Assembly: GCA_902728285.1 (NCBI GenBank)
Contig: CACVBU010000032.1
Coordinates: forward strand, 434,001 to 498,000
DNA from: Clytia hemisphaerica
Taxonomy: Eukaryota > Cnidaria > Hydrozoa > Leptothecata > Clytiidae
Length of the DNA: 64,000 nt
Direction of reading: 5' to 3'
Below are positions 7,980 through 64,000 of this stretch, one piece after another. Each line of letters opens with the position of its first letter. Position 1 is the stretch's first letter. Under the pieces are notes generated by a model that saw only the letters and a list, made by a program, of their open reading frames with translations, was not told the origin of the DNA and made no database searches. The translations under genes and the position numbers were made by a program.

Positions 7980-10900
7980 ATGGCTGGGTTAGTCAAACCA
8001 GATTCTATTTCAACTCTTGGATTCGGTATGGATTTTTTTCATTTCAATAAGATTTGATAATTTTTTGGACCTACCTCAGAGGTTCTTTAAGTTCGTTCGT
8101 TCGTTCGTTCGTTCGTTCGTTCGTTCGTTCGTTCGTTCGTTCGTTCGTTCGTTCGTTCGTTCGTTCGTTCGTTCGTTCGTTCGTTCGTTCGTTCGTTCGT
8201 TCGTTCGTTCGTTCGTTCGTTCGTTCGTTCGTTCGTTCGTTCGTTCGTTCGTTCGTTCGTTCGTTCGTTCGTTCGTTCGTTCGTTCGTTCGTTCGTTCGT
8301 TCGTTCGTTCGTTCGTTCGTTCGTTCGTTCGTTCGTTCGTTCGTTCGTTCGTTCGTTCGTTTTGTCTTGAAAAATATCGAACAGGACTGGTAAAGAGAAA
8401 AACCTTCACAATTTATGCCAAAATGTAATGACCTAACTGGATTGACTTTTTTTGAATTGTTTTAAATACACAGGTTGCAAAAATAAAGTTTGAAGTTAAA
8501 TCATGCTTTTACTCGAATTTTCATGTGCTTATTACACGACCTTCATTTCTGATTGGTTCGAATTCATTAATACGAATAAAGTAATTAAATGTGAGTTGTA
8601 TACCAAGTAACAAGGGAATAAAATCACGTGAACATTTTCGAGTAATCACATGTTTTGGCTGCACAATTCTATAATTTTGCGTGTGTTGCTTTGAGAATTG
8701 ATACTGATACTGATGTAAACAAGAAATTCCTATCTAACTTTTAAGTTATTCCAAACTTTCATTTAAAAATACGATTATTTATATAAGGATACGTTCCAGT
8801 TTTTTGGGATAATCTGATTATAAACTTATGTTAGGGCTTTATTTTTCAGTTTGAATATCTAACGACAGCTAACGATGAAAAGTTATTTTTAGCAAATGCA
8901 AGTGCTTCCAAGTTGATGATGATAGCAACTGGGATAGGATCAGTTAGCGTATATTTCTTGCCAACCAAATATTATCAGAGGTTGACGTTAAATCTAACAG
9001 ATATTATCAATCAGGGACAGGTGAGTTTTCATTTCTAAAATCTTTGAATAGCTTTACAGAGGCCCCGGTGCTTGATAGCTTCTTTCTGTCGTTTTTGACA
9101 AAATACACTCAATCATTTTTTCAGGATGGGATTTTTTAAGAATTCTGTGACTAGCGAGGTTAAGCAAGAAGCTATCTATTACGTGCGGAATCTATTACGT
9201 GAGTTTTTAGACTGGATCCGAGGTGTTTTAGCCTGATTCCTAAAGCTTCACGGCATAGAGAAAAAAGAGGTTAAGCAAAAAAGGCGATCTATTACGTATG
9301 ACGTAATGTCGATTTTTCCATATTTCACTTTCGGCCCCTACTTCTGAAATTTTCTACCTCTTTTTTTCTTTTCCAGTTTTCTTGTTGGGAGTTTGGTCTA
9401 TAAAATCCCCTTACTTTCAATCTTAATCTACTTAGTTTTTCCCCAAGACAAATGTTTTCACAAAAATTAAAACTAGGAAAGCATAGTCAGAGTTTTCTCT
9501 ATATTACTTTTACTATTTTTATTCAACATTTTTATAAACAAAAAATATGTCTCTGACTTATCATTTCAATGAATTCTTAACATTGCAATAAAAATATATA
9601 ATTTCATAATTTCATTCCTAGTTTACATAGGTACCAATAAAAAATTACTGCTTTATTTATAAACAAAAAATAATCTGTAAGAGCATAGACATAGTGTACA
9701 GTATGTCATAGTATGTCATCCTTATTTAGCTGAATTTCTATATGAATGCTTCACCATTACCAATAAAAACACTGTTATAAAAAGTGTGCAAACCTGGTCT
9801 CGTGTTTCATATCTGGCAGGTGTTCCTTCTTCTGCTTCTTTACATTTCAAGGTACCGATATCACCTTTTTAGGAAGGGAGATGTCTCTTTAGAATCCAAC
9901 CAATCAAACCAAACGTTATAACGTTATAATGTTGAAGAAGTTGAAGGATGACCAGTCAGTTAAAATTTTTCAGCAAAGGATTGAGAACTTGAAGCAGTAG
10001 CGGTGTCCAGAATAAAGAGCTTTATATAATTTTGGGGAACGGTTTGAAGTTCAGCGGTTGTGTGACATCAGGTTTTTAGCAGGCTAATTTGTACGTACAA
10101 TATTAGTCAGATAGTTGATGATGAATGAAGAGCAGGAATTGAAACTCGTTACTTAATTCATAGTTGTAGCAGTTGAAATTGGAAAAATATATAAAGATTT
10201 CTTTTGTTTTGCTTCGGGTGGAGGGGTAAATTTCTTTGAGCTTGGCAGAGTGTCTTTTTCGTGTTTGTTGTTTTGGGTGGGTGACATTATAACTTTGGCT
10301 TCTTCGCACTTGATGGGCTGGCACCACAGTCAGAAACACTAAAAAACATGAAAAAGAAATATGGTTACATGCTGTTCATTGTAAAGGTTACTTTGGATGT
10401 ATTTGGACTTTGAGAGCATATAAAAAGCAAGATAAAAAAGAGAAGAAAAACGAACAGAAAAAAGAACCAGAAGAAACTTTCTGTTTGTTTTGGTTTGATA
10501 AAAAAGTCAGCAAAGGTTATTTAATTACACTTACATCTTGACCTTCTTTTGAGCAATAAATTCTTTCACTTTGTTTGTATGCATCATAGTTTGTTTCCAC
10601 AGATGAGATTCAAAAACTTTCTTCTGTCAGCTCAAACTTGTCAGAACAGTCAAAAAAAATCTACCAAAGTTTCTTTTCTGTTTACATTTTTTTCGGGTGA
10701 TTTTTTTTTCCTAAACGATTCAGCCCAATCTCCGTAAGGTAAATTTCCCTGGATCATGCTTATATCCTAATCGAAATCTATTACGTGAGATTGGAGAATT
10801 TCGCGCAATAGATCCACTCTTCAAACTATGACGTACAGGTCAAATTTCACGGGACAGAGTTAGCCTTGAAATTTGGGCGCTAGCCTGCGAAAAACTCACG

Positions 10901-23110: not shown

Positions 23111-26100
23111 GTGGTATGAAAAATGTAAAAAAGCGAAGTACAGCAGTTTATACCTCAATTGCAGTAAAAAATACTACAAACACTAGTCAAGGGAATTCCT
23201 CGACTGGATTACAGTACCCTGTATATTTATTTGCATTAGGTAAATGCATTGAGCTTTATATACCCTGGACCAAGTTTCTCAATCCCGTCCAAGGAAAATC
23301 TTTGATATATGTTTTTTGAAAAATTGTATCCTAATGGCAGCAACCACTCGATAGCGGTGTAAATGCATCGAGAGCACTAGGTCTAGCTCCCTCATATACT
23401 TTTGATGATGTAGCGCCGTTAGACCTTGCAACACTGCAATGACTTCTTTGCTGGTCCCCCTTTAAAAAAGCTTCCATCAAAGATGGCGGATATAGCTTGG
23501 TCCAGGGACCAAGGTTCCACCATAACTTTAGTTCAATTTTCTTGAGACAGTTTTTTTCAAAAAATTAATTTATTAATTAACATTTTCTGTCTGAAACCTT
23601 GCTCAGATAAGAGAATGAAGAAGATTTAACTCAGAAAAATCTGAGTATGAATCTCTTGAATCAGCTTGAATGGGGAAAAGTTGGAAATGATACCAAGATT
23701 TAGCTCATTAAAGTTGCCATTCATATATATGCAACAAGTAAGGTAAAGTGTAATTTACTTTGAAAAAGAAATATTTGATAGTCTACTGTTCTTTAAAATA
23801 CTTTTTTAGTTGGAGCAATTCTCAGCTAATCCAGATGACCCAATTTCCTCATTTGTGTATTTGAAATATCTTTGAAATACCAACCAGACAGATGTTCTAA
23901 TGGAGTTAATTGCCTTCAAAAATTATCATCTACCAGAAATTGTCATAAAATTGTGTCCTCCCCCCCCCTTCAGTCCTGACAATTGGCGCCGGCATACGGC
24001 AAATGCCGAGGCAAAAGCTGAATTAAATTGGATTATAGTGTGTTTGCGTCGGCAAAAAAAATGCCAAGGCAAATTTTTCAAAAGACTTTTACTAAAAATG
24101 ATAACTGCCGAAACAATCGAAGAACTGCAATGTAACAGTGTAACGTCCCCCGACCTCCCTTTAAATTGGGAAAAATGCCGAGGCAGAATCCTATTCTGCC
24201 GAGGCAAACAGCAAATTTAGCCATTTGCCTTGACAAAAAAATGCTGAGGCAAAAAAAATTGAATTGCCAGGGCTGCCCTTTATAAAGGGGGGGGGGGGAA
24301 CCAATTTTCCAATTTTGAATGGGTGAGGGGGGGAATAAAAATTTGAAAAGTAAAGGGGGGAAAAAAAGAGGGGGAAAACATCGAAAGTTGGCGAATCTGG
24401 TGGGGGAAGTGTGAAATCATTTCAATTTTATCTGAGCAACAAAGGTCAGTCACATGATATCATGTGATTAGATCATCACTTAAAGATTAACCAATTTTCG
24501 TTCTATTTTGTCTACTATTCCTTTTGCAGCAAAATTTTACGTTTGTGTCAGGTTGAAATTTGAGAAATTTACACAGGTATATGGGGGGAACACTGATATT
24601 TTCAGAATTTTCTGGGGGGAAAGCAAAAAAGAGGGGGGAAACTAAAAAACTGAAAAGTCATAGGGGGAAAAAAAAGAGGGGAGATTAAAAAAAATCAAGA
24701 ATTTGGTGGGGGGAACAAACCCTGGAGGACACTATGAAATTGTAGCATTGCTGGTAGCAGGCTGGTGTTCTTAGCTAACTGCATTAGAAATTAGCTGTTA
24801 CAAGTTAGATTGTTAAATTTATTGTTCCAGAACTGGTATTTTAACCGAAAAAAAAATATTTATGGAATGTTTTTAGAAAGAAAGAGGTATTGGTCATTAA
24901 TAAACTTGGCATTTGAAATTGTGGTATTGAAGTTATTTGTTTCTGCTGAAGGTTACAATATAATGTGAATCTCCAAGCAATTTTAAGAACATAAGAATTC
25001 AGCATATCAGTATCTTGCTGGCTACACTACTGTTGAGTCTAGCAATCTATTAACTACAGCCGCCAATAAGCTGGTATACAGTTGGCCAGCAACAATTGTG
25101 TAAAATCTCTTTTTAGAAAAGGATTTTGCCTAAAGGGGTAATCTGCCGGCAACAAAAAAGAAAATACCCAGCAATCGGCCAGTAGCAAAGGAAATTTGTT
25201 TACAGTTTTTGTCGGCACTTTTTCCACTCTATTTTCCATCTACTTTTATTACACTGGGCTACACCAAACAAATAACCGGCTGATTGCCAAAAAAAATAAA
25301 GCCTTTTTTTTAATTCAACACATTTTTGGTAATGTTTTCAGGGAATATTTCTCTTATTTTTTTGAGTGGGAAATGAGGAATCAAACAGAATCAGAAGGTC
25401 ACTTTAGTTTTGATTTTTATTAATTTTTCTTAATATATCAAAGCTAACTTGGATTTTGATAAGGCTGTTCCTTAACTAAAAGTTACTTTAATAAAAGATT
25501 AAAAACATAAATTTCTCTTTGATTGCAGTCAGTGTTATTGTCCATCAGTAAGAATTTAAGCTTATTAAAAGAAAGATACAGGCAAAGAAGAAAATTGTGC
25601 AATACCTTTAATCCTTTTTGATAAAACACCATTTAACTTTCATCTAATGCTAATGTGTTAATAATATTCAAATTGAACCCTTACAAAAAGTAATTGTCGT
25701 TCAAAATTACAAGTTGAATACAACTTTATTACTTCATAAAAAGTGTTGCATTATTTTTATTCTTCGAAATCTAAATTTTTGTTATTTTATAACTATCTAG
25801 CCTTTTTGAGCTGCTTTGGTTTATTCCCTCCAGGAGCAACCTACTGTTCATTGATCATTCTACTTTTCTTTTTCTCTAATTATCAAAAAAGAAAGGAATT
25901 TCTAATTGAAACTGTCAACAATGGATATCAATTCAACTTGCTATTAATTTTTTTCAAAGGGGGGATATCACTTAATGGGCTTTGTCTTTTTTAATATTGT
26001 TTTGTTGTGAAAGGAAAGCTCTTTTAAAATCGACTTTTTGAATACATTAAGTTTGTAAATAAAAGAAAGACAGCAGTCATCAGTTAGAAGGTTGAGTTTA

Positions 26101-26155
26101 AAAATATGATGATTTAATTGAAATGTAGAGGCATATTTTTGAACCTTTGGTTAGG
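23111..26155. other. Intergenic, low-complexity patches, no gene seen
   Basis: At 23985-24250 there are repeated 'aaatgccgaggcaaa' motifs in both orientations. At 24280-24720 there are many runs of 5-12 G in a purine-rich strand. The remainder is A+T-rich. The last part must hold the promoter or 5' exons of the next gene, but I cannot place them. Confidence 0.45.
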
Positions 26156-29100
26156 ATGAAGTATTTACATGAAATCAAAGTTAATACTGACACTTCTAAT
26201 GTATTTACAGTAACTTTAATGGCAACAGATGGAGCTGAAGATAAGTGTCGACTTTGTGGTAAAAGAATTGATGGTGAAGTTGATAAGTGGTATGTTCCTT
26301 ACCACTCCAACTGTTTCAAATGCTCCAGTTGTAAAGTACCTTTAAATCCAAGGAATTATTTTTTAACCAACAAAAAGCAATTTTATTGTTTTAAACATTA
26401 TGATCATGATGGCCCAGACAAGCATGGACATTTCTTCAGGGAACTTAAACAATTTCGTAAATATTCTATCGAGAAATCAAAGACTTCGACAGTGAATGGG
26501 AAAACCTCCCCTGTAAAACAACATTATCAAAAAAATGGACTCGTGAAATTAGATTGCAAATGTTCAAGTGGAAAGTCTTCAGGTTATTGGTATGAGTGTA
26601 CTTTCAGAAATTGTCCTTCATCACAATGTTATCTTAAATCGAGAGACTTTAAACATTTTCATGTGGCAACCTGGAAGATCACATCTGGTAGAAGCACAAC
26701 ACAAATTGAACACAGTGAAGAAGAACTTTATGAGATGTGCTATCATGGACAGAGACATGCCAATTTTTATTCTGTAGATGAACGTATTGGTCCTATTGTA
26801 TTGAGTTTGAAGCATGAATCTATCATGAAAATCCCTTTTTACAGGTAATTAATTCCCCTTACAGATGTTTTGAGTCACAAACTAAGGGTCTACCCTCCAC
26901 TAGCTGATAGATATCTTCAAATGCATTAAAAAAAATTTTATTCAGAAGACAGATAATGCACTCAGTGGCATAGATTGTGGTGTTCCTGGAGTATCAACCA
27001 TACACCTATCTACCTGTACAGGACCAAGAAAGACTGATCTGATAAAATTTCTATATCAGTTTTGGTCAAAACTGATATAGAAATATAGTCTATCTCTTGA
27101 ATTTTTTCTTTTTGATTCTTTTTTTTTTCTTCATTTAAATAGGATTCTTCTACGATCTTCATCACACATCACAGAAGGTTTAATCCCAACGACCTCATTC
27201 TGTTTAAATGACTATGATGATAATGCAGTACTGGAAGTCATCAGTAGAGAATTGGACCTTACTTCAGACTTGAGACAATTCAATGATTCCATTCCACCTA
27301 CCAAATTGCTCCTGTTGGATAAAGTAAGAAACAGATTGATCATTATAGTCCATTGATATGATGGTATTTGATGAGCACTCAGCCAATTGGTCAATATAGT
27401 CCAATGGTATATGTAATAGTATTTGCACTCAACCCAATATTCCAAAATAAGATTGGTATCTTTTATTCTGCTAAATCTGACTTTGCAATCTTAAATTGTA
27501 AAAATAATTTCTTTTTTCCAGGTGATGTTGAAAAGTGAATTCAAAATAGGTGTTGTTTTCGTGGACAAAGATCAGCTCAAAGAGGAGCAATTTTTTACCA
27601 ACACTACACACAGTGACGATTTCGAGGAATTCCTTACATACCTAGGCGAAAAGATATCATTGAAAGGATTCAATGGTTACAGCGGTGGCCTGGATACTGA
27701 CAATGGATTGACTGGAGAGCATTCCATTTACAAAGAGTACCACAATTTCCGTATGATGTTTCACGTCTCAACTCTCTTGCCAATGGAAGAGCATGATGAC
27801 CAGAAGGTAATATATTAAGATTGAATTCGATTAAAAACCCGGCTTCTGTGGATTGATTCGTCAATTAGACAGTTTTTTGGTTCTATGCTTTCACTTCAGA
27901 ATTGCCTACAAAATTTCTTAAATTTTTGAACTATAGAGATTTTAATGAACTTTTTAATGAATGAATTTCTGAATGTTGTTAACAAAGGTGTATGGGTAGA
28001 GATTTCAATTAATTTTCTTTTAGACATTCATAGCTCTTTGCTAATCAAAAGTACTAATCAATAAGACAGTATTACCAAAGTATGAAATTCCAACCAAAGC
28101 CTTGTTATGTTGTGTTTAGTCACGTCGAAAAAAAGTTTGGCAGACATGTGAAGTATATTTCATTTCCTTCCAAAGGAAAATGATTGATATTATTTGAACA
28201 GGATACCTAGCGAAGGAAATTGTTTAGAAATTTTAATATGATATTGCCATTTCATTTACTATACATTACCAGCAATAAAAGGTAGTCTGACTTTCTCTTT
28301 GACTAATTTTTCCGTCTCAAAGTTTTAAAATAGTTAAGATTTACTCGTTGTCATGGTTCCATACTTGAGACAACCAGTTCTTTTTCTGTCTTACTTCCTG
28401 TGTTTTGAGGCATTTATCCTTATTTTATATTGGTGTTTTGAATTTCCACAACAGCAGAATTCTTAAAATCCCTGATCTTGGTGACATCACTAATACCCAT
28501 TCACCAGACTTCCTTTTTAAAAACTAGCAATTCTATCTCGAGTAGGAAGAATTCTCAAGAGTTTTTCTTTGTTTTCGACAGTTATTTTCTTTTTGACACG
28601 TAAAATAGCTGCTATGTCAACTCCAGTTATATAGCTTAAAAGTTTTTAGTACTTTTGAGAGCACGCTGAAGAAGAATTTCAATATCCCTTGTCAGTTTAT
28701 CATTGCTTCAGTTTCTGAGTTTGTTGAGTATCTTATGGTTAAGGAGGAAGTAGACGAAAGAGGAATCAGATATGTGAGGTTTCCATGATTCATTTGTATC
28801 ACTGAGAAAAATTTGTCTGCTCTTGTACGTGGTTTATAGTTCAACCATACAATGATTAAGTTTGTTGATTGCTTTGTGTGCTCAGATAATTAACATACAT
28901 GTACTGTGCCACATGCCAAGACATGCTGTTTGATGATTGCAAAAAATGCCATCAAGAGAAGAAAAAAATCATCTTTCATCATAATTGCAGTGATTGAGTG
29001 CTCGTGACTTTTTTAAGAGTTAATTGATTGGTTAGCTTGTTTCGAAAAAGAATAACCTGTTATCTATACATTTTAAGCATTGTCTTTTGACAAATTGCCT

Positions 29101-32100
29101 TGTGTGCGTTGATCTTTTTATTTTTGTAAAAGTAATTATGCAAACACTGCAATAATGTTTCTAAAATCATTTATCTGTGGTGATTAGCTCTTTTGAACGA
29201 CCACATTAGTGAGTTTTGAACCTAGGAAATATCAAGTGGCGTGCAGTGATTTTCCTGTATACAAACTCCTAACCATTTCAATCCCTATCTCTGTCAAAGA
29301 TCACTTTCTGTGATTCTCTTCAGTAATTCGAACATTCAAATTATATTTCTAGTTCGAATTTAACAAAAAACATAGTATTCTAAAGACCAATGAAAATAAT
29401 CCTTTCGATAGTCTAATGAGATCCATTTATTGATTTTACAGTTTCTTATCTACATACTAGCCCTGTTTCTAAATTGTTGAAAGTTCGCTTTGTATCCTCG
29501 TATTTTCCAAGAAAACCTTAACGAAAGCCATTTCGTTTTTTCTGTTCACCAGCTCCAAAGGAAAAGACATATTGGGAATGATATTGTTTGTATAATTTTC
29601 CTTGCACCTGGCGCTCGTTTCGACCCAAACTCGATCAAATCAAATTTCCTTCATGTTTTCATCATAATTCAACCACAGATTTTACATGGAGAACTATTTT
29701 ACAAGGTATCAATGTTATTTTCTTTTCACTCTTTATTAAATGGTAAGGTGGACCGATTGCTTGTCGTTTATTCACCTCATCACTATGTAGTAGAAGGAGC
29801 TATTCGAAATGTACTTTTACTTATATATAAATTCGAATGTACACTGTACAATTGAATTCTTGAAACATGAAACAATTCACTGATATTTCTTTCACTCTCA
29901 GGTCGATGTTGCTTCGAGAGATTTTGTCCAAAATTATGGACCGCCACTTCCCAAGAATAAACTGTTCAAAAATGTAAGTTTGGCTTTAAATTTCACAGCC
30001 TCTCCCCGCTGTTCACGTTCTTTTTTCCTAAAATTTGTTGTAAGATTATTTGACAAGTTCTCCACCCTCTTGTAAAAATCTTTTCAAAGGTTCCTTTAAT
30101 ATTGTATTGATGTAGGTAATATTTTGAGCAAAGTCTCTTCCTTTTCTTGGAGGCTCATCAAGAAGGAAATACTGCTTCCAGCGTTAGCCTTAGATCCTGA
30201 GGATCATGAGGGATGAAAAGCAATAATCTCTCTTTATTTATTTTTTTTTAGGATTCATCTTTTCAACGATGGCTGTACGCGAAGATAATCAACGGTGAAA
30301 GAGCGAGTTATCGTTCACCCAAGTTCGCTTCCATGCAGGTAAAGAAGTTTTTATTTCTGCTTCACCCTGTCTTGGTGATATGGAAGGTGTTAGAACTGAT
30401 CAATAAGTCCAATTAATGTTCATTGTGTTGGACACTTGTAGGTAATAGTTTGACTGGTTCAATAGTTGTATCAAGACGAAAAAAACGGGTTGAAAAGAAT
30501 CAAACGGGATTGTATTCGCTGGTTATGACAATCGCATATTATATTATTCTTGTTTTTGTTCAGGAACGTACTCGTCGGCAACTTTTAGAAGAGTTAGTGC
30601 ATGATCAAGCTTGTAAGGAAGTTCAGCCGTCCCTCAAATTTTCGAAGAATCCTTTTCAACGGCTTCTTCCCCTTAGGTAAGCTTACGTATTTCGTCATGT
30701 CAATATATTATAATCAGTTAAAATAAGTGGAAACGAGTGGAATTTATAGTATTAACCTGCATGTTAGAACCAAATAGATTCATTACAACAAAGAACTCCT
30801 TTTAGGAATAAGTTCACCAAGCTTCTTTCAATAGAAGAGAATGTAAAAATCTTGTTTTACTTACTGTTTTGTAAACTTAACAGAAATTTGTGTGTTTTAA
30901 CCATCATCAAAGATGGTTTTTAAAAGTATTTGATAATTGATTTTGAATTTTTCTACATTACACAGACACAGTTTCACTCGATCGTCGCCACATACTCCGT
31001 CCTTGCAAAGGTATCAGGACAAAACAAGCCATTCATGCATTCATTTCATTCACTCATTCGCTCGCTCTAACTAACCCACACTCTAATCTATATAGCTCAA
31101 ATCAACGCTATTATACATAGTATCTGAAATAGGGAGGTTTTATTTTCAGATGAATTTTCGGATGTTTTCTGAGGTTTATTTCTGTGGAAACTTAATTGTT
31201 TTAGTTTTTTTGGTTTATCTATCGTGTGTTCATCACATCATATTGTTTTACTCATACTGTAGCTTTCTCTTCTCAATAACTAGGTCGATGAGTTTTGCAG
31301 CCGACCATATTGGTATAACATCACCGGCTGACCAGCTACGACGTGATCTTAAACGCTCTTTAGCCTGTGGAATCAGTCAATATCATGACGTCATCTTTCT
31401 CGTTGGTAAGTTTCCACAAAATCTCCTGATCCCTGCGATTGATGATAAGTAAGTCTGCGACTGCAGTCGATAGCTATCTACCCGAAGGTAGGGGAGGGTG
31501 TCACTCTTTTTCCCTGGATGGCTCCACTTACCCTTGATCCTTCTCTTAATTGCTGAGCATCAAGCAGAGAGACATCAAGTACCATTTTTGGAATCTTTAG
31601 TATGACCTGAGGTTTGAACCCACAACCTCGCGCACCGTAATCGGATGCTCTACCACTGCACTATGGTCCCTGCGATTAGTTAGATATGAAAAGTCAGTTT
31701 TTCCACCAATCTTCGTTGCTCAATCAGATTTACATTTCCTAGTTTAAAGGTCCCAAAAAAAGGCCACATCAGCTGTGCCTTTCGTAATATCAAGGGACTC
31801 AAAATGAAATTTATCAAGCTCCTCCCGAATTTGAAATCCGTTTTCCTGAGGGAGAGGCCGCCTCTCTAGCTTTATATTCTTTTTCCAGGTAAAGAGAGGG
31901 GAGGCTCAGTTCCCGCTGTAAAAGCTCTTTTGGCTATGAAAAGCAGGTAAGATAGACATTGTCGCCACTGTTCATCGTATTTCGATTTTATGATTGATAC
32001 AGCCATTGCGTATTTTCAATGGTAAGGAAAATTACTCTTAGGTTCCAAATAAATGGGGGAGGGGCTGGAATAAACGGGGGTGGGGAAAATTTTCGAGATT

Positions 32101-35100
32101 TTAATAAACGGGGGGGGCTAATTGACGGGGGTTGGAAATTTAGGCTGTTTAGAGCAAAATAAGGGGCCTTCTCTTTGACAGCTGAAAATATTATTAAAAA
32201 TTAATTCTTACTTGTTACTTGTGTTACTTGTGTAGTTGTTTGAGCATCCTGCTTCAGGTAAGGTTCTTGGTGAACCACGCCTCCGTGTGATTAATCTGTC
32301 GAGAGAAAAAGAATCTCAGCAGATATTTTTCATGTCAATTATTGAGTTTGAATTAGCTCTCCTGCATCCAGTATATCCATGAATCTGGGGTTCATCTGGG
32401 ATAGACTTAAGGTGTGTGTCCAGGGCTCTTTTGAATTTATCGATAGAAATGTTTTTGAGGTTTCTGATGCTCTTTGGCATAGCATTAAAAAGTTTTGCAC
32501 GTTGCACTGCAAGTGTGCTGTCTCTAAATTTTGATGTTTGATTCTTTGGAATTGACAGTGTTTTTTTCAGTGGTTTTGATACCATTTACAGTAGGTACAA
32601 TCTTTTCCATCACCTTCCAGACATACATTATTCTGTAGCGTTCTCTTCGCCTTTGAAGTGACACTCCCAATAATTGTTTGGGGTGCCATTTATCTTTTGT
32701 AAGAAGGACTTTTGAATATCTTCAAGTCTCTGAATGAGACCAACTGCATTTGGGCTCCACAGAACGGAGCAATATTTTAATATTGGTATCACCAATGATT
32801 TATATAGTACGATCATACAATTTAAAGACCGTGAAGAAAAAGTTCTCAGGATCCAAGATGTTAAGTTTTTAGCCTTTTCGATTACTGCAGTAATTTGCTT
32901 CTGAAATGTGCAATTACTGTCCATCAGGATTCGAACGTCTTTCACAACATCTTTGTTTTCAATTTCAACACCAGACGGTGATGTATAGCTTGTTTGAGTC
33001 TTGATCTCATGGTTCTTTCCATAGCGCAAGAGTTCAAATTTTATATCATTTAGCTTCATATTGTTGTCATCCGTCCATTTATATATTCTATCAAGATCGT
33101 TTTGAAGTAGGACAGCATCTTCTAGAGTTTTGACTTCCTTTGTGGCGCGAGTGTCATCAGCGAAGGATTTAAGAAAGCTGTGCACCACTTCCTTGTCAAT
33201 ATCCCCAATCAATATGAGGAAAATCAAAGGTCCCAAAACACTACCTTGAGGGACTCCTGAAATGACCTGTTGTGATTCAGAAGTGACACCATTCACTAGC
33301 ACTGATTGTTTTCTCTCTGTTAGGATGGACTTTAGCCACTGTAATAATTTTCCATCTACTCCTAGTTTCTTTATTTTTCGTAGTACAATTGAATGGTCTA
33401 CTTTTTCAAAAGCCTTTGAAAAATCTAGGTACACAACATCCGCATTAGCATCTTCGTCCAATATATTTAGTATCAGGTCATATTGTTCCAAAGGCTGACT
33501 CAAACATGAACGCCCGCTTCTGAATCCATTATTCCTTATTAGGTCTGGAAAATTTTTCGAAAAATCAACAAGCAGGGGGAGTACTAAGAGTACGGATTGT
33601 TCCCCGACTGTGCCCGGACTTAGAGATATCCGATAAATTTGGTTGGTGTTTTCTAGTTAACTCTGCTTTACCTTTTTCAACTTTCAGAGTGTTCAACGAG
33701 ATGTTTTTCCCTGGTTCGTATCAATCTTCCGCGCCTCGTCGTCGTTCGTCCGTCTTATCGCGCGTTTCTCCTCACTACCTTTCGCAACACCTCCGTAGCA
33801 GCAAACGACTGTCAGACTTTTGGAAACGCAACAACAACACGACAGCTAACAACGGTTCTACAACATCAACAACGACAGCCTCCTCATCAAATGATTCCTC
33901 TCCTTCTAAAAACAATAACCATTCTCCTGAATCGAGTATAGTTGATATAAAGGAAGGTCAGCTGTCCTCTAAGGTAAGCTTGCTATAGCTTTAAGTTATA
34001 TTCACTATTCATGTTTTGCCCATTTCGACTGTTCATTTTGTTTCACTTATGTACGCTTGCCACCTTTTAGAGTCTTTTCGCTTCTACATTGTTATATCTT
34101 ATCATAATAAGATTCTCATATGTGATCTAAACATAAAAATAACCCAGCTATAAAAAACTATTTTTTAACTTTCCTTCTAAGCTTCAAGTCACAGAATTTG
34201 ACATGGAGGAGTTCTCGGCGTTGATCGAATACATCCAAACAGGTTCGTGTGTGATCACACCAGAAACTGTGGTGGGTTTGGCGTGTGCTGCTGAGTATTA
34301 CCAAGTGGACGAGCTGATCGACCTTTGTGAACGCTCTTGTCAACAAATGTGTGATATAAGAAACGTAAGTCGCCTTGATCACGGTAATCATCGATTTGAT
34401 GTAATGTGAAAAACAATATTTTAGAGTAGGATCTAGAATGAAAGAAAGAAACGAAACGAAAGTGGCGCACGGTTTACCGTCTTTGTATCATTGGTGTAAA
34501 AGTGACAATAGAACACCCTTTCGATGTGGATTTGTGATACTTTTCAGATTTGTTTGCCTTTTTCTCAGTCTTTCTTATTATTCGTTTTTAACTAATTTAG
34601 TCTAATAAAATTTATATTTATTTTAATGTATATCTCTTGGTTCAAATATATTAGGGAAATTGCAGTGTAAAAAAATAGGACATGGCTATTGTTTTGACAT
34701 ACAACTAACTGTTCTCGACACTGAATTGAAGTTTCATGCTTCATGTTTTTCATTGTTCTTCTAGCTACCAGTTCTATTGACGTCAATCAGACAACATATT
34801 TTGCGTTACTCCATCGCTATCAAGCTTGAACAATATGTAAGTGTCTGTCATACAGTAGTTGCTCCCTTTCTCACAAATGCCCTTATTATTCGTCCAAATT
34901 TAAGGAACAAATGAATTTTAAAAGATTCGAATCTGAAATTGGCCAGCTATGCTTTCGTGTTTGTCACGGTTATTTTAGACATCCAGTCTAAATCAAATGC
35001 TAATTAACAATCAATTTATCTTTCACTTACTTACTTACAGGTGAAGTCGTTCACGGAATCTTGCAATAACGAGTTATTTGATTTTTTCGACATTTCGTCT

Positions 35101-38100
35101 CTGTCCCATGAAGTGTTCGACTGTTTGCTCACATCGACATTCGGGGTGAGTTAGTTTTCACCTCTTAACTCCACTTACAAGCCATTCAAAATAAATGTGA
35201 TTATTTTGAATGGCTTGTAATAAAAGTTTCTTTTCCCGCCAGAGCTCACGTTGCAGATTGAAACCCTATCATTTCAATTTCTAGTTTAGTTTCATCATTG
35301 ATGTTTGGCCATAGGCTCATCTCTTCTTCATGCTTAATTCAACTTCTAACGCTTCCAAAACGAACTGTAGTTATTTATATTTTCACGTGTAAAAAAATCA
35401 GTATTGATCATCCAATTTATCAAAAAAAGCTGATTTACTTCTCTTTCAAAGAAAAGGAGGTGATGATATTTATACAATAAGCGTAGAGCCGTGAACCAAT
35501 TACTGAAGTTTATTAAGAGTAATTTATTTTCTTCAGGTTGACGATTCACTCAACTTCAGTTGAGCTACAATCTGACAATGTCTGTGTGTGTGTCTGTGTG
35601 TCTGTGTGTGTGTCTGTCTGTCTGTCACAAAAACTTTAGGGCAGCCTGGAGACTTCAAAAATGCTTGGATTTGGTTGATATTTGGCACACTTGTTCCTTG
35701 GGTGAATATCTGGGGGTGTTTTTTTCATTTTTTGAAAATTTTGATTTTTGGGGCCTGGGGACGAGTTTTTCGCCAAAACGAGGCTAAAACTTTGGGGCAG
35801 CCTGGAGGCTTCAAAAATGGTCGGATTTGGCTGAAATTTGGCACACTTGTTCCTTGGGTAAATATCTGGGGGTGTTTTTTTCACTTTTTGTAAATTCTGA
35901 TTTTTGGGGCCTGGGGACGAGTTTTTCGCCAAAACGAGGCTAAAACTTTGGGGCAGCCTGGAGGCTTCAAAAATGGTCGGATTTGGCTGAAATTTGGCAC
36001 ACTTGTTCCTTGGGTAAATATCTGGGGGTGTTTTTTTCACTTTTTGTAAATTCTGATTTTTGGGGCCTGGGGACGAGTTTTTCGCCAAAACGAGGCTAAA
36101 ACTTTGGGGCAGCCTGGAGACTTCAAAAATTGTTCGATTTGGCTGAAATTTTGCACACTTGTTCCTTGGGTGAATATCTGGGGATGTTTTTTTCATTTTT
36201 TCAAAATTTTTTATTTTTGGGGCCTGCGGACGAGTTTTTCACCAAAACGAGGCTAAAACTCTGGGGCAGCCTGAAGACTTCAAATATTGTTCGATTTTGC
36301 TGAAATTTTGCACACTTGTTCCTTGGGTCCTTGGGTGAATATCTGGGGTTTCATTTTTCATTTTTCAAAATTTTTGATTTTTGGGGCCTGGGGACGAGTA
36401 TTTCGCCAAAACGAGGCTAAAACCTTTGGGCAGCCTGGAGACTTAAAAAATTGTCAGATTTGGCTTAAATTTGGCACACTTATTCCTTTGATGAATATCT
36501 TGGGGTCTACAATTGGGCCTATAAATAACTTGAAGCTACTGAAGTTGAGCCCAGTGCGTTGCGCACGTTCGACTATTTATTAAGAGTAATTTATTTTCTT
36601 CAGGTTGACGATTCAAAGAAGAGGGAGGCAATAGAAGAATGGCACGAAAGACTTTCTACATTTCGTAAGTATCCAACTTCAATTTTTCCTTTGTTACTAC
36701 GATCAAAGCACATATTATTTACACGTATTCGACCTTGATTTTGTGTTGCTTTTGTTTGTGCTTCAAAGGGTTTCCAAACATTGAACTGTGAGGAATTAAT
36801 ACACATTTTTGGGCTGGAGTTGCTAAAGATTTTCATGATTTTAGCCAAAAAGTTGCTTACTCTCGGGTACCTAATACTTTAGGCGTACAAATTTTCGCGA
36901 GCAGAAACTTTCGCGATTTTCGCGAATTTTGGCCCTTTTCGCGAAAGTAAATGTCTTTAAAAATTCTAGGAAGGGCATTCGCGAAAGATTATGCTCGCGA
37001 AAAATTCTTGATAAAATAGAAAATCTGTAAAACTTCAAACTTTAAATAAAATGGAACTTTTCTGGCATTTTTTAGCCTGCTAAAAGACTAATAAGTCAAA
37101 GGACAAATGTTTCAAGCCAATCCACGAAGTATTTGTCCCTATCTAAGCCATTTTTTCATGTGAAAATTCTCAATTTTACGTCTTTATTCGCGAAAGTTTA
37201 TGCCCGCGAAAAATATTTTTTCGTTAAATTCGCGAAAGTAAATGTCGTGAATTTCGCGATTTTTCGTCCTCGCGAAAGTTTCTGCTCGCGAAAGATTGTA
37301 CGCCTAAAGTAGCCCCCCCCCCGCTAATTAATTTTTCGAAAATTTTCCACCCAGGACATTCTTATTCCAACCCCCCCCCGCTTATTAATTTTTGGGAAGA
37401 TGATTTCAAATTCCCTCTTTTGTCCTAATTCTGCTGTATTAGCCTCATTTTCAAAATTTTCCACCCAGGACATTTTTATTCCAACCCCCCCGCTTATTAA
37501 GTTTTGAGATTTTTTCCAACCCCCCCCCCCCGCTTATTCCAAAGCCCCCGGCTATTAGGTACCCGAGAGTATGCATTTTGAGCCAAAATTGCTTAGCGGC
37601 TCCAAAAAATTTCACTTATTACTTCATTTTATGCCCAAAATACCTCAAATTAGGCGAATGATAAAAAAGGTTTTGTTTCCGGAATGCGGGTGAAGGAAAA
37701 AAGTTATCATGCGGCCGGCCGGAAAATAATTTTTTTTTGCTATTTTTAATAATTTATGGCTAATTGAAATAGAGTTTAAGAATAACTTTTATGTATAAAT
37801 ACAGCATAAATTATGCCCTAAATTACAACAAGTACGGACTACTAACGAACGAAAGTTTGCGGCCGGGTCAGAAAATTTTTTTTTTTCACCCGGCCGGTTT
37901 CCGGAAACAAGAAATTTTTTTTGTTTCGCCTTAGGTAGGCAATTTGATGCCAATTTAGGCAAAATAATTCTGATTTTCAAGGTAATATTGGTTGCTTTTT
38001 AGTTCATACTCAGTATGGGCTATGGTTGATAAGCCAAGTTGCTTCATTCTTTGGCCATTTTCAGGGCTGATGAAAAACTGAGTATATTTATGACTATTAT

Positions 38101-38223
38101 TTTTCCAACACAGTGAACGCCAATGAAAGCGTGCGTTTGAAAGACTTACTACTGCAACACGCAGACATCGATTCCACGCAACTTAAAGACGAGGGAGAAA
38201 CCATGATATGCGGTGACTATTAA
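26156..38223 (+). CDS. LIM - RapGAP - BTB/BACK-like fusion protein
   Basis: Coding exons: 26156 (or 26219)-26844, 27143-27323, 27522-27806, 29553-29705, 29902-29973, 30252-30338, 30564-30676, 30966-31010, 31284-31405, 31889-31946, 33688-33973, 34182-34364, 34765-34836, 35041-35145, 36604-36664, 38114-38223. All phases agree: 852 residues from ATG 26219 or 873 from 26156. Numbering from 26219: LIM zinc ligands C10, C13, H29, C32, C35, C38, C57, H60. A Rap-GAP domain (about 260-470) has [19 protein letters not shown] and [14 protein letters not shown], where N373 matches the Asn thumb of Rap1GAP. A BTB fold (about 550-725) has [20 protein letters not shown] and [16 protein letters not shown], split by a Ser/Thr/Asn-rich insert. 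A BACK-like tail follows. Predicted role: GTP hydrolysis on Rap, with BTB dimerisation or cullin-type contacts. The BTB part recalls the insect serine-enriched (gprs) protein. The start and exon 1 acceptor (possibly 26210/26211) are unsure. Confidence 0.88.
31441..31666 (-). mobile_element. tRNA-derived SINE with 11-bp target duplication
   Basis: Read on the minus strand, the right part gives a tRNA-like head: 'agtgcagtggtagagcatc' (A box) and 'gtgggttcaaacctc' (B box), about 40 bases apart. The body of about 160 bases continues leftward. The direct repeat TCCCTGCGATT at 31430-31440 and 31667-31677 flanks it exactly, as expected for retroposition. It sits in the intron after the exon ending 31405. 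The cloverleaf is imperfect, so it is not a functional tRNA gene. Confidence 0.85.
32033..33592 (+). mobile_element. G-run MITE split by a LINE insertion
   Basis: The left half (32033-32211) starts TACTCTTAGGTTCCAAATAA and runs to 'gacagctgaaaatatt'. The right end (about 33536-33592) resumes with 'ttattaggtctggaaaattt' and 'aaaaatcaacaagc' and finishes CTAAGAGTA. The missing middle is occupied by a minus-strand LINE. All lie in the intron between the exons ending 31946 and starting 33688. Confidence 0.75.
32212..33535 (-). pseudogene. LINE reverse transcriptase, 5'-truncated and frameshifted
   Basis: The minus-strand frame from about 33535 to 32628 encodes a non-LTR reverse transcriptase: [38 protein letters not shown] and the catalytic FADDT (Phe for the usual Tyr). 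A second frame, 32585-32316, holds the usual C-terminal tail ([25 protein letters not shown]). A frame break between 32628 and 32585 separates them. The endonuclease and 5' region are missing. The 3' tail toward 32212 is a short simple repeat ('cttgttacttgtgttact' on the plus strand). It is dead as it stands, but relatively recent given the long open palm. Confidence 0.9.
35509..35548 (+). repeat. 40-bp direct repeat, left copy (duplicated splice acceptor)
   Basis: Identical to 36576-36615. It contains the polypyrimidine tract, 'ttcttcag' acceptor and the first 12 bases (GTTGACGATTCA) of the exon that really begins at 36604. If this left copy were used, the frame would read VDDSLNFS and stop at once. 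Confidence 0.9.
35549..36575 (+). mobile_element. Helentron/HINE-like tandem-repeat element
   Basis: It starts with CTCAACTTCAGTTGAG, itself palindromic. A (TGTG/TGTC)n microsatellite follows at 35580-35628, then six tandem units of about 156 bases (from 35641, 35798, 35953, 36109, 36266 and 36430), each with 'gcagcctggagacttcaaa' and 'ggcacacttgttccttggg'. Near the right end are ACTGAAGTTGAG, the inverse of the left terminus, and the hairpin GTGCGTTGCGCAC. Short inverted ends, a microsatellite, a tandem core and a 3' hairpin are the layout of DINE/HINE/pearl elements. The 40-bp flanking duplication is not expected for that class. The 186-residue minus frame is an artefact of the period. Confidence 0.75.
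36576..36615 (+). repeat. 40-bp direct repeat, right copy (functional acceptor)
   Basis: Identical to 35509-35548. Its last 12 bases are the start of the RapGAP-BTB exon 36604-36664. The pair flanks the HINE-like element. Confidence 0.9.
36858..37571. mobile_element. Outer inverted-repeat element of a nested pair
   Basis: The ends TACTCTCGGGTACCTAATA and TATTAGGTACCCGAGAGTA are exact inverted copies, resembling the G-run MITE termini. The right part has 'ccccccccgcttattaattt' motifs, reading as the G-run family on the other strand. A second complete element (36875-37311) lies at its left end. All are in the last intron of the RapGAP-BTB gene. Confidence 0.8.
36875..37311. mobile_element. Inner MITE with TTCGCGAAA motifs
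   Basis: The ends TACTTTAGGCGTACAA and TTGTACGCCTAAAGTA are perfect inverted copies bounded by TA. The interior carries about ten copies of TCGCGAAA or TTCGCGA in both orientations, so long hairpins are possible. It is inserted just inside the outer element. Confidence 0.85.
37646..37944. mobile_element. MITE, CCGGAAAC family (0.3 kb)
   Basis: The left arm 'ttttgtttccggaatgcggg' and the right arm 'cggccggtttccggaaacaa' are inverted. Outer flanks 'caaattaggcgaa' and 'ttcgccttaggtaggcaatttg' extend the inversion loosely. CGGCCGG islands match the 20514-21366 copy. Confidence 0.7.
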
Positions 38224-39571: not shown

Positions 39572-40932
39572 TGGACCTACCTCCGGGTGCCCCGGTGGAT
39601 GTTCTATAAATTAACCCATGTCCGTCCGTTCGTTCGTCGTTCGTCCGTCCGTCTGTTACCAGCTTTTCTCAGGATTGGCTCATTAGTTTTTTCTGATTTT
39701 TTGCACAATGATGCAAAATGGCAATGCCCAGAACGTGACGGAGCCCGATTTTTGAGAAAAAATTTATTTGGGCAAATTTGGGCCAAAAACTACCTAAAAA
39801 TAGGGTTTTTGGACTTTGTGCAAAATCCTGTCATTACTTTTTTCTGATTTTTTGTACAAAGATGGAGGGCAAGATTCTCTAAAGAATGGCTGAAGTGGTT
39901 TTTCCTGGAAAATTCTTATTCGCCTTAAAAAACGGATTTTCGTATTTTGGGGGAAATTCCCTTTAACCAAATAAGAAAATATAGCTTTTCTCAATGTTGA
40001 CTCGTTATTTTTTTCTGATTTTTTGCACAATGATGCAAAATGACAATGCCTAAAATGTGTCGGAGCCCGATTTTCGAAAAAAAATATATTTGGGCAAATT
40101 TGGGCCAAAAACTGCCTAAAAATAGGGTTTTTTGGACTTTGTGCAAAATTCTGTCATTACTTTTTTCTGATTTTTTGTACAAAGATGGAGGGCAAGATTC
40201 TCTAAAGAATGGCTGAAGTGGTTTTTCCCGGAAAATTCTTATTCGCCTTAAAAAACGGATTTTCGTATTTTGGGGAAATTCCCTTTAACCAAATAAGAAA
40301 ATATAGTTTTTCTCAAAGTTGACTCATTATTTTTTTCTGATTTTTTGTACAATGATGCAAAATGGCAATGCCTAAAGTGTGACGGAGCCCGATTTTCGAA
40401 AAAAAAATATATTTGGGCAAATTTGGGCCAAAAACTGCCTAAAAATAGGGTTTTTTGGACTTTGTGCAAAATCCTGTCATTACTTTTTTCTGATTTTTTG
40501 TACAAAGATGGAGGGCAAGATTCTTCAAAGAATGGCTGAAGTGTTTTTTCCTGGAAAATTCTTATTCGCCTTAAAAAACGGATTTTCGTATTTTGGGGAA
40601 ATTCCCTTTAACCAAATAAGAAAATATAGCTTTTCATAATGTTGACTCATATTTTTTTTCTGATTTTTTGCACAATGATGCAAAATGACAATGCCCAAAA
40701 TGTGACTGAGCCAGCTTTTTAAGGAAAATTTTTTTGGGCAAATTTGGGGCAAAAACAGCTTAAAAGGTTTTTTGGGTCTGGATGGTTTAAGTGATTTTCG
40801 TATTTGGGGACATTCCTTTTTACCATTTTACATTATTCAACACACAAGCTTTATTTTTCCATTCTGAATTTTTGTACAATTATTGTCACTTTTTTCTTAT
40901 TTTCATCTGATTTTTATCATTAGGTAGGTCCA
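39572..40932 (+). mobile_element. Tandem-repeat element with tetranucleotide microsatellite
   Basis: The ends TGGACCTACCT and AGGTAGGTCCA are inverted. After the left end comes a (GTCC/GTTC)n tract at 39620-39657. About three and a half tandem units of roughly 320 bases follow, each containing 'tttctgattttttgcacaat', 'gggcaaatttgggccaaaaa' and 'aagatggagggcaagattct'. The layout parallels the 35549-36575 element with a different unit. Open frames across it are by-products. Confidence 0.75.
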
Positions 40933-42920: not shown

Positions 42921-43135
42921 CCGAGTTCTATTTCGGGTTTTAAATCTTTTTCGTGATCCTTGAACAAGAAGCCGCTCGAATCCAGTCGTCTTTAACAAGT
43001 ACGATACTTTGTGCTTAAATCATGGGAGATATTCCAGTAGGAGACGACTGCATTTGGACATCTTGGACGAGTTGGTTTATTTTTTACATCTCTCAGCTCA
43101 GTCAGGAGGATCTTCAAGTTTCACAAAGAATAACG

Positions 43136-46100
43136 ATGGCTTCTCAAACTGAAAAGAAGGTTCTTATTGCAATGGATGAAAGTGAACACAGCAAAAGAGC
43201 TTTTGAATGTAAGAACTTTTTTAATTGTTATGTGTCGGTCCAGTTGGCACGCGTCGTCAACCTGCATCCAATTCCACTCAGTTCCATGCCATCAATATGC
43301 CAAAAATATTTTGTTCAACCACCTTCACTTCAAGATAGGCCACCATAGAATGAACTTCCTTTTATAGGATCAATTGTAAAAGGGGTTACGCACGATACGA
43401 AAATCTCGTGTTCGCAAGCGAAAGGTTTTTTACACTACATACCGTAGGATTGCTAAACTTCCTTATTCCAAGCGAAATGTTCCGATTACTAGTGTACATC
43501 GGAAAAGGACCAAAACGCCACAAAAGTAGATTTAACACCGATTTTAGCCGGAGACGCCTAGAAGCAAAAAGATCCCGGAGACGGGGCAGGTATGTTTTCC
43601 CGGGAATGAGAAAGTTAGCCATTTTATGATACAATTTTAAAAAGTTGTACCCAGCCGTTTGGGTGATGTGTGATCGGGAAATAATTCGAGGCATGATTTG
43701 GGCTATTTTCGCGATATTTGCATGGTGAACAAACCTTTTTTGGTAATTTTCATGATCGTCAAGAGAGCAAGGAAAATTTCTATCAATGCATCTTAAACAT
43801 GTACAAACTCTGGTGAACCAAAACAACTTTGATTCTATTTTCAAAACAAACTGCTTTTTTGAAGTTTTTTTAACTCAAATATCTTAAAATTTCAACCTAA
43901 AACTTTTTCTCTTTTCTCGTTTTCTTAAATCAAGGGGGTAATGTATATCTACAAAAATTGATCTTGTTCATCAAAAATTGAGAATATTTTACAATAAGAA
44001 AACCAAAGGAAAATTTATATTTTCAAAATAGATGAAATATTTTGCATATACTTTCATATATAAAATATTGGAAAAAAGGTTTAATATATAAAATATTGGA
44101 GAAAAGGTAAAATATATAAAATATTGAAAAAAAGTAAAAAACTTTCAAAACAGGGAAACAATTTCATAATTTCAAACATACACTTTTTTTAATATAAGAA
44201 CGATTTTATAAGAACAACGAGGCTCAAAATCGCCAAAAAATAAGAACAATTTAAGAGCAATGCTGAGCCTGAAACTACTCAATTTCAATCAATTTAGGGG
44301 TCAAAGTGATAAAAATTGGGTATAATTCCTAAAATACCTGACTTACATCCTATTAATAAGAACATATGATTGATAGAAGCTCAAAGTGCAAAAAAAAAAA
44401 AAAGAACAGTCGAGGCTCAGAAAAATTTTACTGGTTCTTATAAAAGTGTAATGCAAAAGAAATCTCATATATACTGGGAAACATTTTCATAATCTGAAAG
44501 AACGTCGAAAGGAAAAAATCCCCCTAGCAGAAGGCATTTTGTAATTTTCAAAAGCATGCTGCAAAAGCAAAAAATGTCACAAAATTGGCAATCATAATCT
44601 CCAAAATTTCCAAAAAGAAAAAAAGTCTTCATGCCAGGATATTGCTTGAAAAAATTTTCAATTGAAGCGAAAATAAAAAAATGTAGCGTTTCTGGAAACC
44701 AACCGGGTGAAAAATAATAATTTTCTGATCTGGGTTCATCTATATATAGTTCATTATAAAAAAAATCAAGTTGGAGCATTTTAAGCTATAAAAGTAGTTT
44801 GGTTAGATATTCTCACTCGTAGATCAAGAATTGTTTGTTAGTTAGTAGTTGATACATTAGTATATTCAGGGCTTACTTCATACTGTTCGTACATAAAAGT
44901 TATTGTTAAAGTTCTATTTCAATGATCTTATATATTACTTAAATCATCAAAAAAATATAATAAAATTTTTTTTTCTGACCGGCCGCATCAAAGCTTTTTT
45001 CCTTCACCCGCATTCCGGAAACACTACATTTTTTTTTTTTTTTGCCTGACAGCAAAACTTTTCTACATTTTTTAAATGCATGTGGAAGAAAATGTCAAGT
45101 TAACGACAAACATTTTCCACATGTTTAACGTACGGAGAAGAAAATGTCCAAGTCCACAGCAAAAATTTCCACGTTTTAAAAGCACGTGAAAGAAAATGTC
45201 CAAATTCACATAAAAAATTTCCACGTTTAAACGCACGTGGAAGAAAATATCCAAATTCACAACCAAAAGTTTTCCACGTTTTAATCGCACGTGGAGGAAA
45301 ATGTCCAAATTCACAACCAAAGGTTTTCCACGTTTAAAATGCACGTGGAAGAAAATGTCCAAATTCACAGCAAAAGTTTCCACGTTTTAAAAAACACACG
45401 TGCAAGAAAATGTTCAAACTCACAACCAAAAGTTTTCCACGTTTTAAACGCACGTGGAAGAAAATGTCCAAATTCATAACCAAAAGTTTTCCACGTTTAA
45501 AACGCACGTAGAAGAAAATGTCTAAATTCACAGCAAAAATTTCCACGTTTTAAACGCGCATGCAAGAAAATGTCCAACTTCACAACCAAAAGTTTTCCAC
45601 GTTGCATTTTTAAAACATCAATCATCAATCAGTAAATTTTGCTCTGGGTTTAAATTTTTACATTAAAGCTAACCAGTTCATATCCAACCGCAACCATTTC
45701 CTTGGCTTGGGTGCCGCATCTACCATCTGACCATCATAAAAAAGTGAGTTCAAACTTTTTTGATGTCGCAAAATTTTTCAAATATAGCATGGTCAGATTT
45801 ATCCACAAATATTCAGTCAACTGCCTTGTTAGAAATTGTGTAAATATACGGGCAAAATTGAAGTTAGTTTGTTGTGAAAGTTGATAAAATATCGAACGGA
45901 TAAAATATCCTGTTTTTCAAGAAGAGATTGCACCAATCTCTCATGCCAAACCAAACGAAACATCAAATTCAGGAAGGAATAATAAGAAAACTTCATCATC
46001 AACCATTTCTTGTAACAATCACACAAAAATCATGATCCAATTCAACTCATTAAAGCATAAAAACCAAAGAAAAATAGCGAAAGAGCGGTAGCAACCAGTT

Positions 46101-58109: not shown

Positions 58110-58725
58110 TACATAAATGTCCCATAATGAAAATGTTTGCGAGTGATAATGTGTGAATTTTGTGATATATTATTTCATATGAATTTTAGGTTTAGATCAC
58201 AATGAGTATAAAATGCACATTCAAATTATTTATTATTTGCCATTAAAATTATCCTGTTTTTTATTCTACTTTTAGAGCTTTTACCAATATTAATTTGACT
58301 CTGACACCACGTTTCTTTCTGTACCCGATTCGTTTTTTAATGTTTTTGTTTTGATTTTCTTTGAATTTGATTTTTATAACTACTATTTATTGTACTGAAT
58401 GCGTTATGTTTGGTTATATGTTTTGTAATGATAGGAGAATAATATATTGTTTTGAATGAGTTGACAGACTACTATTTAATTGATGTTACCTTATTGTAGT
58501 CCTTCAGACAACCATATATTCTACATTAGATAATCTGTCGAAGGATAACTACTAGCTCATCTTAACGATGAGAACAACAGAGAACCACCATGTTGCGATT
58601 TTCTTTCATGTGACATTTTTTATTCTAAACGTTTTTCGATCCACGTTAAGTTTTTCCAATAATCTTTTGTTACATATGCAATATTTTATTCTATTCAATA
58701 GTAAATACAATTAACAAATCAATGA

Positions 58726-63732: not shown

Positions 63733-64000
63733 CTAAAATATAATTTCGAGGGATTTTAATGTAATGTTATAATAAGAAAGCTCAAAACTTTGTCTGCCCT
63801 CTTGAAAGTTCATGCATGTTAAAGCGAAAAGAGTCTTTTAATCTTGAACCTGGACCTGAACCTGTCTGTCCAACTGACTAAAATTCGTCGTCCATACGTA
63901 GTTGGCATGAAACTTTAAGTTCTAAAACGAAAAATCAAAGTATTTTTCTTTTAATTTGAACAAGCTTTGATATCATCGAGCACTCTCGGCAGATAGAAGA

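Follow-up and report, generated by a model that had tools for sequence, protein, structure and literature searches.

RapGAPs, the GTPase-activating proteins (GAPs) that act on Rap, are distinguished by their partner domains, which govern where they are placed and how they are regulated. Does the hydrozoan Clytia hemisphaerica possess a RapGAP with a LIM domain at one end and a BTB domain at the other? The question is raised by a gene, known from sequence alone, that spans positions 26156 to 38223 on the plus strand of a 64,000-nucleotide stretch of contig CACVBU010000032.1 (the window). An initial annotation of this DNA described one gene joining LIM, Rap-GAP and BTB domains and a BACK-like tail. 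We conclude that LIM, Rap-GAP and BTB probably do form a single gene, as the reading frame, the domains and the splice phases all suggest; the BACK-like part of the description found no support in Pfam. A RapGAP with its own BTB would couple the inactivation of Rap to BTB-driven assembly.

The first thing to establish is whether the exons make a protein. Sixteen of them join in phase, as had been proposed, into a frame of 873 residues that ends in the stop codon TAA. All 15 introns begin with GT and end with AG, and the joined exons contain no internal stop. Coding scores are above zero in every exon, although 15 of the 16 served to train the score and exons 4 and 10 reach only 0.03. The weak splice sites are the acceptors of exons 8 and 9, treated below, the acceptor of exon 12, at the end of intron 11 (top 29% of AG sites), and the donor of exon 14 (top 25% of GT sites). 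Like the acceptor of intron 11, those of introns 1, 12 and 15 (top 15%, 18% and 18% of AG sites) are no better, or little better, than the acceptors of exons 8 and 9. A Pfam search of the joined 873-residue protein, the check that the initial annotation had suggested, finds LIM, Rap-GAP_dimer, Rap_GAP and BTB, each above its curated cut-off. Because these four domains pass their cut-offs and the two halves of the BTB match as one domain once a polar insert is removed, we regard the trio as genuinely present in the sequence, not as a product of chance. The exons are as follows, each with its position, strand, content and, in brackets, the evidence or a remark.

Exon 1, 26156..26844, plus strand: LIM domain, cysteine-rich linker with a YWYE motif and start of the Rap-GAP dimerisation domain (open frame and Pfam).
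Exon 2, 27143..27323, plus strand: remainder of the Rap-GAP dimerisation region (Pfam and Rap1GAP match).
Exon 3, 27522..27806, plus strand: first half of the Rap_GAP domain (Pfam and Rap1GAP match).
Exon 4, 29553..29705, plus strand: catalytic helix KRHIGN with the asparagine (Asn) thumb (Pfam and Rap1GAP match).
Exon 5, 29902..29973, plus strand: Rap_GAP domain (Rap1GAP match).
Exon 6, 30252..30338, plus strand: Rap_GAP domain (Rap1GAP match).
Exon 7, 30564..30676, plus strand: end of the Rap_GAP domain and linker (immediate stop if the intron is retained).
Exon 8, 30966..31010, plus strand: 45-nt in-phase bridge from Rap-GAP to BTB (frame kept if skipped).
Exon 9, 31284..31405, plus strand: short protein segment, then start of the BTB (joined frame and Pfam).
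Exon 10, 31889..31946, plus strand: first half of the BTB (joined frame and Pfam).
Exon 11, 33688..33973, plus strand: BTB helix VFNEMFF, then a polar insert (Pfam and phmmer).
Exon 12, 34182..34364, plus strand: second half of the BTB (Pfam).
Exon 13, 34765..34836, plus strand: C-terminal tail (no family match).
Exon 14, 35041..35145, plus strand: C-terminal tail (weakest donor of the model).
Exon 15, 36604..36664, plus strand: C-terminal tail (acceptor has an exact duplicate about 1.07 kb upstream).
Exon 16, 38114..38223, plus strand: C-terminus and stop codon TAA (joined frame).

What kind of GAP would this gene make? The Rap-GAP_dimer match covers residues 190-249 (Pfam expectation value, E, 1.4e-11; 45 bits; profile positions 3-62 of 106) and the Rap_GAP match residues 315-494 (E 5.9e-61; 206 bits; profile positions 2-185 of 185). 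In phmmer searches of solved chains, residues 190-502 match Rap1GAP best (1srq, E 2.8e-66; 3brw, E 1.8e-65); the remaining four matches, tuberin and RalGAP among them, are far weaker. The catalytic part is 45% identical to human Rap1GAP. Its Asn-thumb helix, KRHIGN at residues 389-394, is complete and aligns with solved Rap1GAP, bearing out the claim of a Rap-GAP domain with this motif. An excerpt of one study of Rap1GAP names N290 as the essential thumb and places K285, R286, H287 and I288 in its helix (PMC7804450). All five residues are retained in the window protein. The gene encodes a protein of the Rap1GAP class, with predicted GTPase-activating activity toward Rap.

Is it then the Rap1GAP gene of this animal? 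The whole genome (417 Mb, 951 contigs) holds 13 Rap_GAP matches on six contigs, and two of the 13 belong to the window gene. A copy on contig C195 (G000:C195) shares 55% identity with human Rap1GAP over 124 residues and, over some 121 columns, 43% with the window gene; the copies on C236, C232, C308 and C643, which may belong to the SIPA1-like, GARNL3, tuberin and RalGAP families, match more weakly than the C195 copy. Given that the C195 copy is closer to human Rap1GAP, we infer that the window gene is a further paralogue of the Rap1GAP class rather than the Rap1GAP gene itself. By inspection, an exon of the C195 paralogue that reads QERTRSML seems to begin near the equivalent of the exon 7 start, and other intron positions of this paralogue look different from those of the window gene.

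At the N-terminus, residues 31-82 match LIM (Pfam E 7.4e-8; 33 bits against a cut-off of 22.9). The zinc-ligand set was said to be complete, and all eight ligands can be read directly, by inspection: C31-x2-C34-x15-H50-x2-C53-x2-C56-x2-C59-x18-C78-x2-H81. The x15 spacing is slightly under the usual length. In the PDB, this part comes closest to the LIM domains of FHL, MICAL-type, abLIM and PINCH proteins (E 6.2e-5 at best). Since one stop-free exon encodes the LIM domain, the linker and the first part of the dimerisation domain, the union of LIM with Rap-GAP needs no splicing. AlphaFold, run on the exon 1 protein alone, gave a mean predicted local distance difference test (pLDDT) score of 33, which is unusable.

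The 5' end of the gene may be drawn in more than one way. By inspection, an acceptor-like sequence, TGTATTTACAG, ends at 26210, eight bases before an ATG at 26219, so the start codon may be 26219 instead of 26156, giving 852 residues, or there may be additional upstream exons. The observed/expected ratio of CpG is 0.25 at 24500-26155, the depletion setting in near 24.5 kb; this hints at a transcribed unit that starts upstream of 26 kb. Up to E 1, Pfam gives no GoLoco match in the 873-residue protein; this is a short motif, and upstream exons may exist. Among the most CpG-poor stretches of the window, whose mean is 0.88, are 24000-29500 (0.24-0.54) and 56000-58500 (0.37-0.48), both taken in 1.5-kb steps; they are perhaps footprints of germline methylation. 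The first starts some 2 kb ahead of exon 1 and takes in only the 5' part of the gene.

The crucial border is that between Rap-GAP and BTB. Could these be two adjacent genes read in the same direction, one with LIM and Rap-GAP that finishes past exon 7 and one with the BTB that begins around exon 9? Two facts make this possible: the frame of exon 7 stops immediately if intron 7 is kept (the open reading frame, ORF, ends at 30680, directly past the donor), and exon 9 contains an ATG at 31288, with the frame also open upstream of it. Other observations weigh against a single gene as well. Exons 8 and 9 have acceptors of middling strength, which rank in the top 11% and 16% of AG sites. Scans for a homologue with the same domain order found none in viral contigs or GTDB genomes: viral contigs gave 14 pattern matches to the RapGAP piece, none to the BTB piece and 51 to an alignment of two RapGAP rows, and GTDB genomes gave 174 to this alignment, with no relative in either collection. 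These collections hardly hold animals, so the nulls say nothing about rarity.

Against two genes stand the size and content of the gap. It measures only 607 nt and contains the 45-nt exon 8, and introns 7 and 8 (289 and 273 nt) are within the range of the gene's other short introns. Among GT sites of the region, the donor of exon 7 ranks in the top 0.7% and is thus strong. Exon 8 comes first among 17 in-phase cassettes in the gap, a number that includes overlapping variants, when scored with a small training set, the gene's other 15 exons; the GC content of exon 8 is 0.51 against 0.27 and 0.33 in the flanking introns. The splice phases agree on both sides of the gap. No polyadenylation hexamer (AATAAA, ATTAAA or TATAAA) occurs in 30677-31888; this is weak evidence, because the window's rate predicts only 1.3 for the 607-nt gap. 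The CpG ratio is 0.32 over the span of exons 1-3, 0.58 in intron 3, 0.87 over the span of exons 4-7, 0.80 in the gap, 0.70 over that of exons 9-10, 0.61 in intron 10 and 1.16 over that of exons 11-14: there is a large step across intron 3 and no break at the Rap-GAP/BTB border. We therefore regard a pair of genes as unlikely and continue with one.

If the gene is one, what does its BTB do? The better of two BTB stretches, residues 696-752, matches with E 6.1e-14 (52.6 bits against a cut-off of 20.5); two further BTB models in Pfam stay below their cut-offs. The first half matches alone at E 1.5e-5, and with the polar insert removed the whole becomes one continuous match at E 6.2e-17. The insert has some 73 residues (21 Ser, 9 Asn and 7 Thr), is followed by D-I-K-E-G and strand 4, and lies in the alpha3/beta4 loop. 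The BTB of the proposed 'BTB plus BACK-like tail' thus stands. For the tail, Pfam found no BACK match in two tail-containing pieces with E allowed up to 10, although its filters discard most matches above 0.1, and no named domain in exons 13-16; BACK was likewise absent from the eight PDB matches of the tail piece alone at E up to 10. Only at E 0.077 does a phmmer alignment with KBTBD2 extend across the tail. Kelch and MATH gave no Pfam match in the 873-residue protein.

One gene could still work in another way: its BTB might recruit CUL3, so that Rap or its partners are marked for ubiquitination. BTBD6 and SPOP are among the closest solved BTBs. The CUL3-binding motif phi-x-E is M83-S84-E85 in KLHL3, and, according to the study concerned, binding is severely disrupted by A77E, M78V and E85A (PMC3616122). 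At the contact site the solved proteins read CAMFTGDMSE (KLHL3), SAMFEHEMEE (SPOP) and YAMFYGDLAE (BTBD6), with gaps removed. The window protein has Glu606 at the position of KLHL3 Ala77, which is Ala in all three, and in its uninterrupted sequence S612-Y613-Q614 stands at the place of phi-x-E with equal spacing, the long polar insert coming after it. Mainly because of Glu606, we consider CUL3 recruitment less likely than plain self-association of the BTB, and the absence of a BACK match points the same way. One observation speaks for CUL3: once the insert is removed, phmmer aligns I689-K690-E691 with M-E-E of SPOP and I-V-D with L-A-E of BTBD6, so that a displaced phi-x-E may be present. With Glu at a CUL3-contact Ala, the ubiquitin-ligase scaffold suggested earlier is somewhat disfavoured, and a CUL3 adaptor seems to us improbable.

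It is very doubtful that parts not normally co-transcribed were brought together by the assembly or by an inserted element, as a functionless combination private to this individual or species: repeats and a reverse transcriptase fragment do occur in introns 10 and 14, but all the elements found sit inside introns, none at the Rap-GAP/BTB border, and the 16 exons join without a stop and all have coding scores above zero. The reverse transcriptase fragment (32628-33656, minus strand; Pfam RVT_1, E 2.4e-19) lies in intron 10, antisense to the gene, and CpG is also low, 0.52, in the stretch 32001-33500. Further downstream, a perfect 40-bp direct repeat (35509-35548 and 36576-36615) flanks an insert of about 1 kb that is largely a 156-bp tandem array. 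The repeat copies the acceptor of exon 15 and the first 12 bases of that exon; the upstream acceptor, if used, would read VDDSLNFS and then a stop, and the tail would be lost.

We think it about an even chance that the best explanation, a single gene for a Rap-directed GAP whose BTB mediates self-association and whose LIM domain places it, is right. In this model, the Rap-GAP domain would pair through its own dimerisation domain, and the Asn thumb would turn Rap-GTP into Rap-GDP. The BTB would offer a second self-association surface, yielding a dimer or a larger assembly, rather than recruiting CUL3; the BTB dimer of the initial annotation is compatible with this. The LIM domain, in the role of GoLoco or PDZ in other RapGAPs, would place the protein, perhaps at sites of actin or adhesion. 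Exon 8, of 45 nt, and the polar insert would act as regulated linkers. The Glu at the CUL3-contact position makes a clear prediction, testable with purified domains.

A bolder version is conceivable, and we hold it only tentatively: a separate RapGAP branch may have been kept across early-branching animals, in which the BTB lost CUL3 binding and builds RapGAP assemblies, the LIM domain brings them to sites of adhesion or actin, and the insect gene gprs is the split-off BTB half. Should the same domain order turn up in further animals, it would put a date on the shuffling of the domains and could account for how lone BTB genes arose.

Elsewhere in the window, a universal stress protein ORF lies at 57741-58106 on the plus strand (Pfam Usp, E 6e-22); the ORF at 43019-43345 has a similar-looking start and no match above cut-off. 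A minus-strand ORF at 63008-63766, about 25 kb from the gene, has a weak BTB match (21.5 bits against a cut-off of 20.5). A perfect GTTC repeat of 67.8 copies occupies 8091-8361, with several frames open, and tandem arrays occupy 1-1587 (units of about 300 bp) and 39661-40765 (units of about 323 bp).

Has such a protein been described before? No description of one with LIM, Rap-GAP and BTB appears among the matches listed in open-access papers for this domain set, gprs or the evolution of RapGAPs, which does not establish absence. The initial annotation proposed that the BTB part resembles insect gprs (CG18471) and that gprs may be what is left of a longer ancestral gene. The gprs gene is single in Drosophila, and the excerpt that reports it gives no domain detail (PMC1352350). 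C. elegans F53A10.2 is termed a Rap-1 GTPase-activating protein in one paper and listed against SIPA1L1 in another, with no domains given in the extracts of either; the passages of PMC2447299 consulted do not name it. As a possible LIM/BTB RapGAP, this worm gene was set aside and not disproved.

How does the window protein compare with known systems? Rap1GAP (RAP1GAP; 1srq, 3brw) has the same succession of dimerisation and catalytic domains and an identical Asn-thumb helix; its N-terminus, according to an excerpt, carries a GoLoco motif (PMC12329598). Unlike Rap1GAP, the window protein has an N-terminal LIM domain and a C-terminal BTB. The Rap/Ran-GAP domain is common to it and to the SIPA1-like, GARNL3, tuberin and RalGAP proteins, which carry other partner domains (PDZ, CNH and tuberin), and the solved chains of tuberin and RalGAP match it far more weakly than does Rap1GAP. 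With the CUL3 adaptors KLHL3, SPOP and BTBD6 it shares a BTB recognizable by sequence and possibly a displaced phi-x-E; it differs from them in the Glu that replaces the contact Ala and in the long alpha3/beta4 insert. All of its pieces belong to known families, and their combination is at most a new variant.

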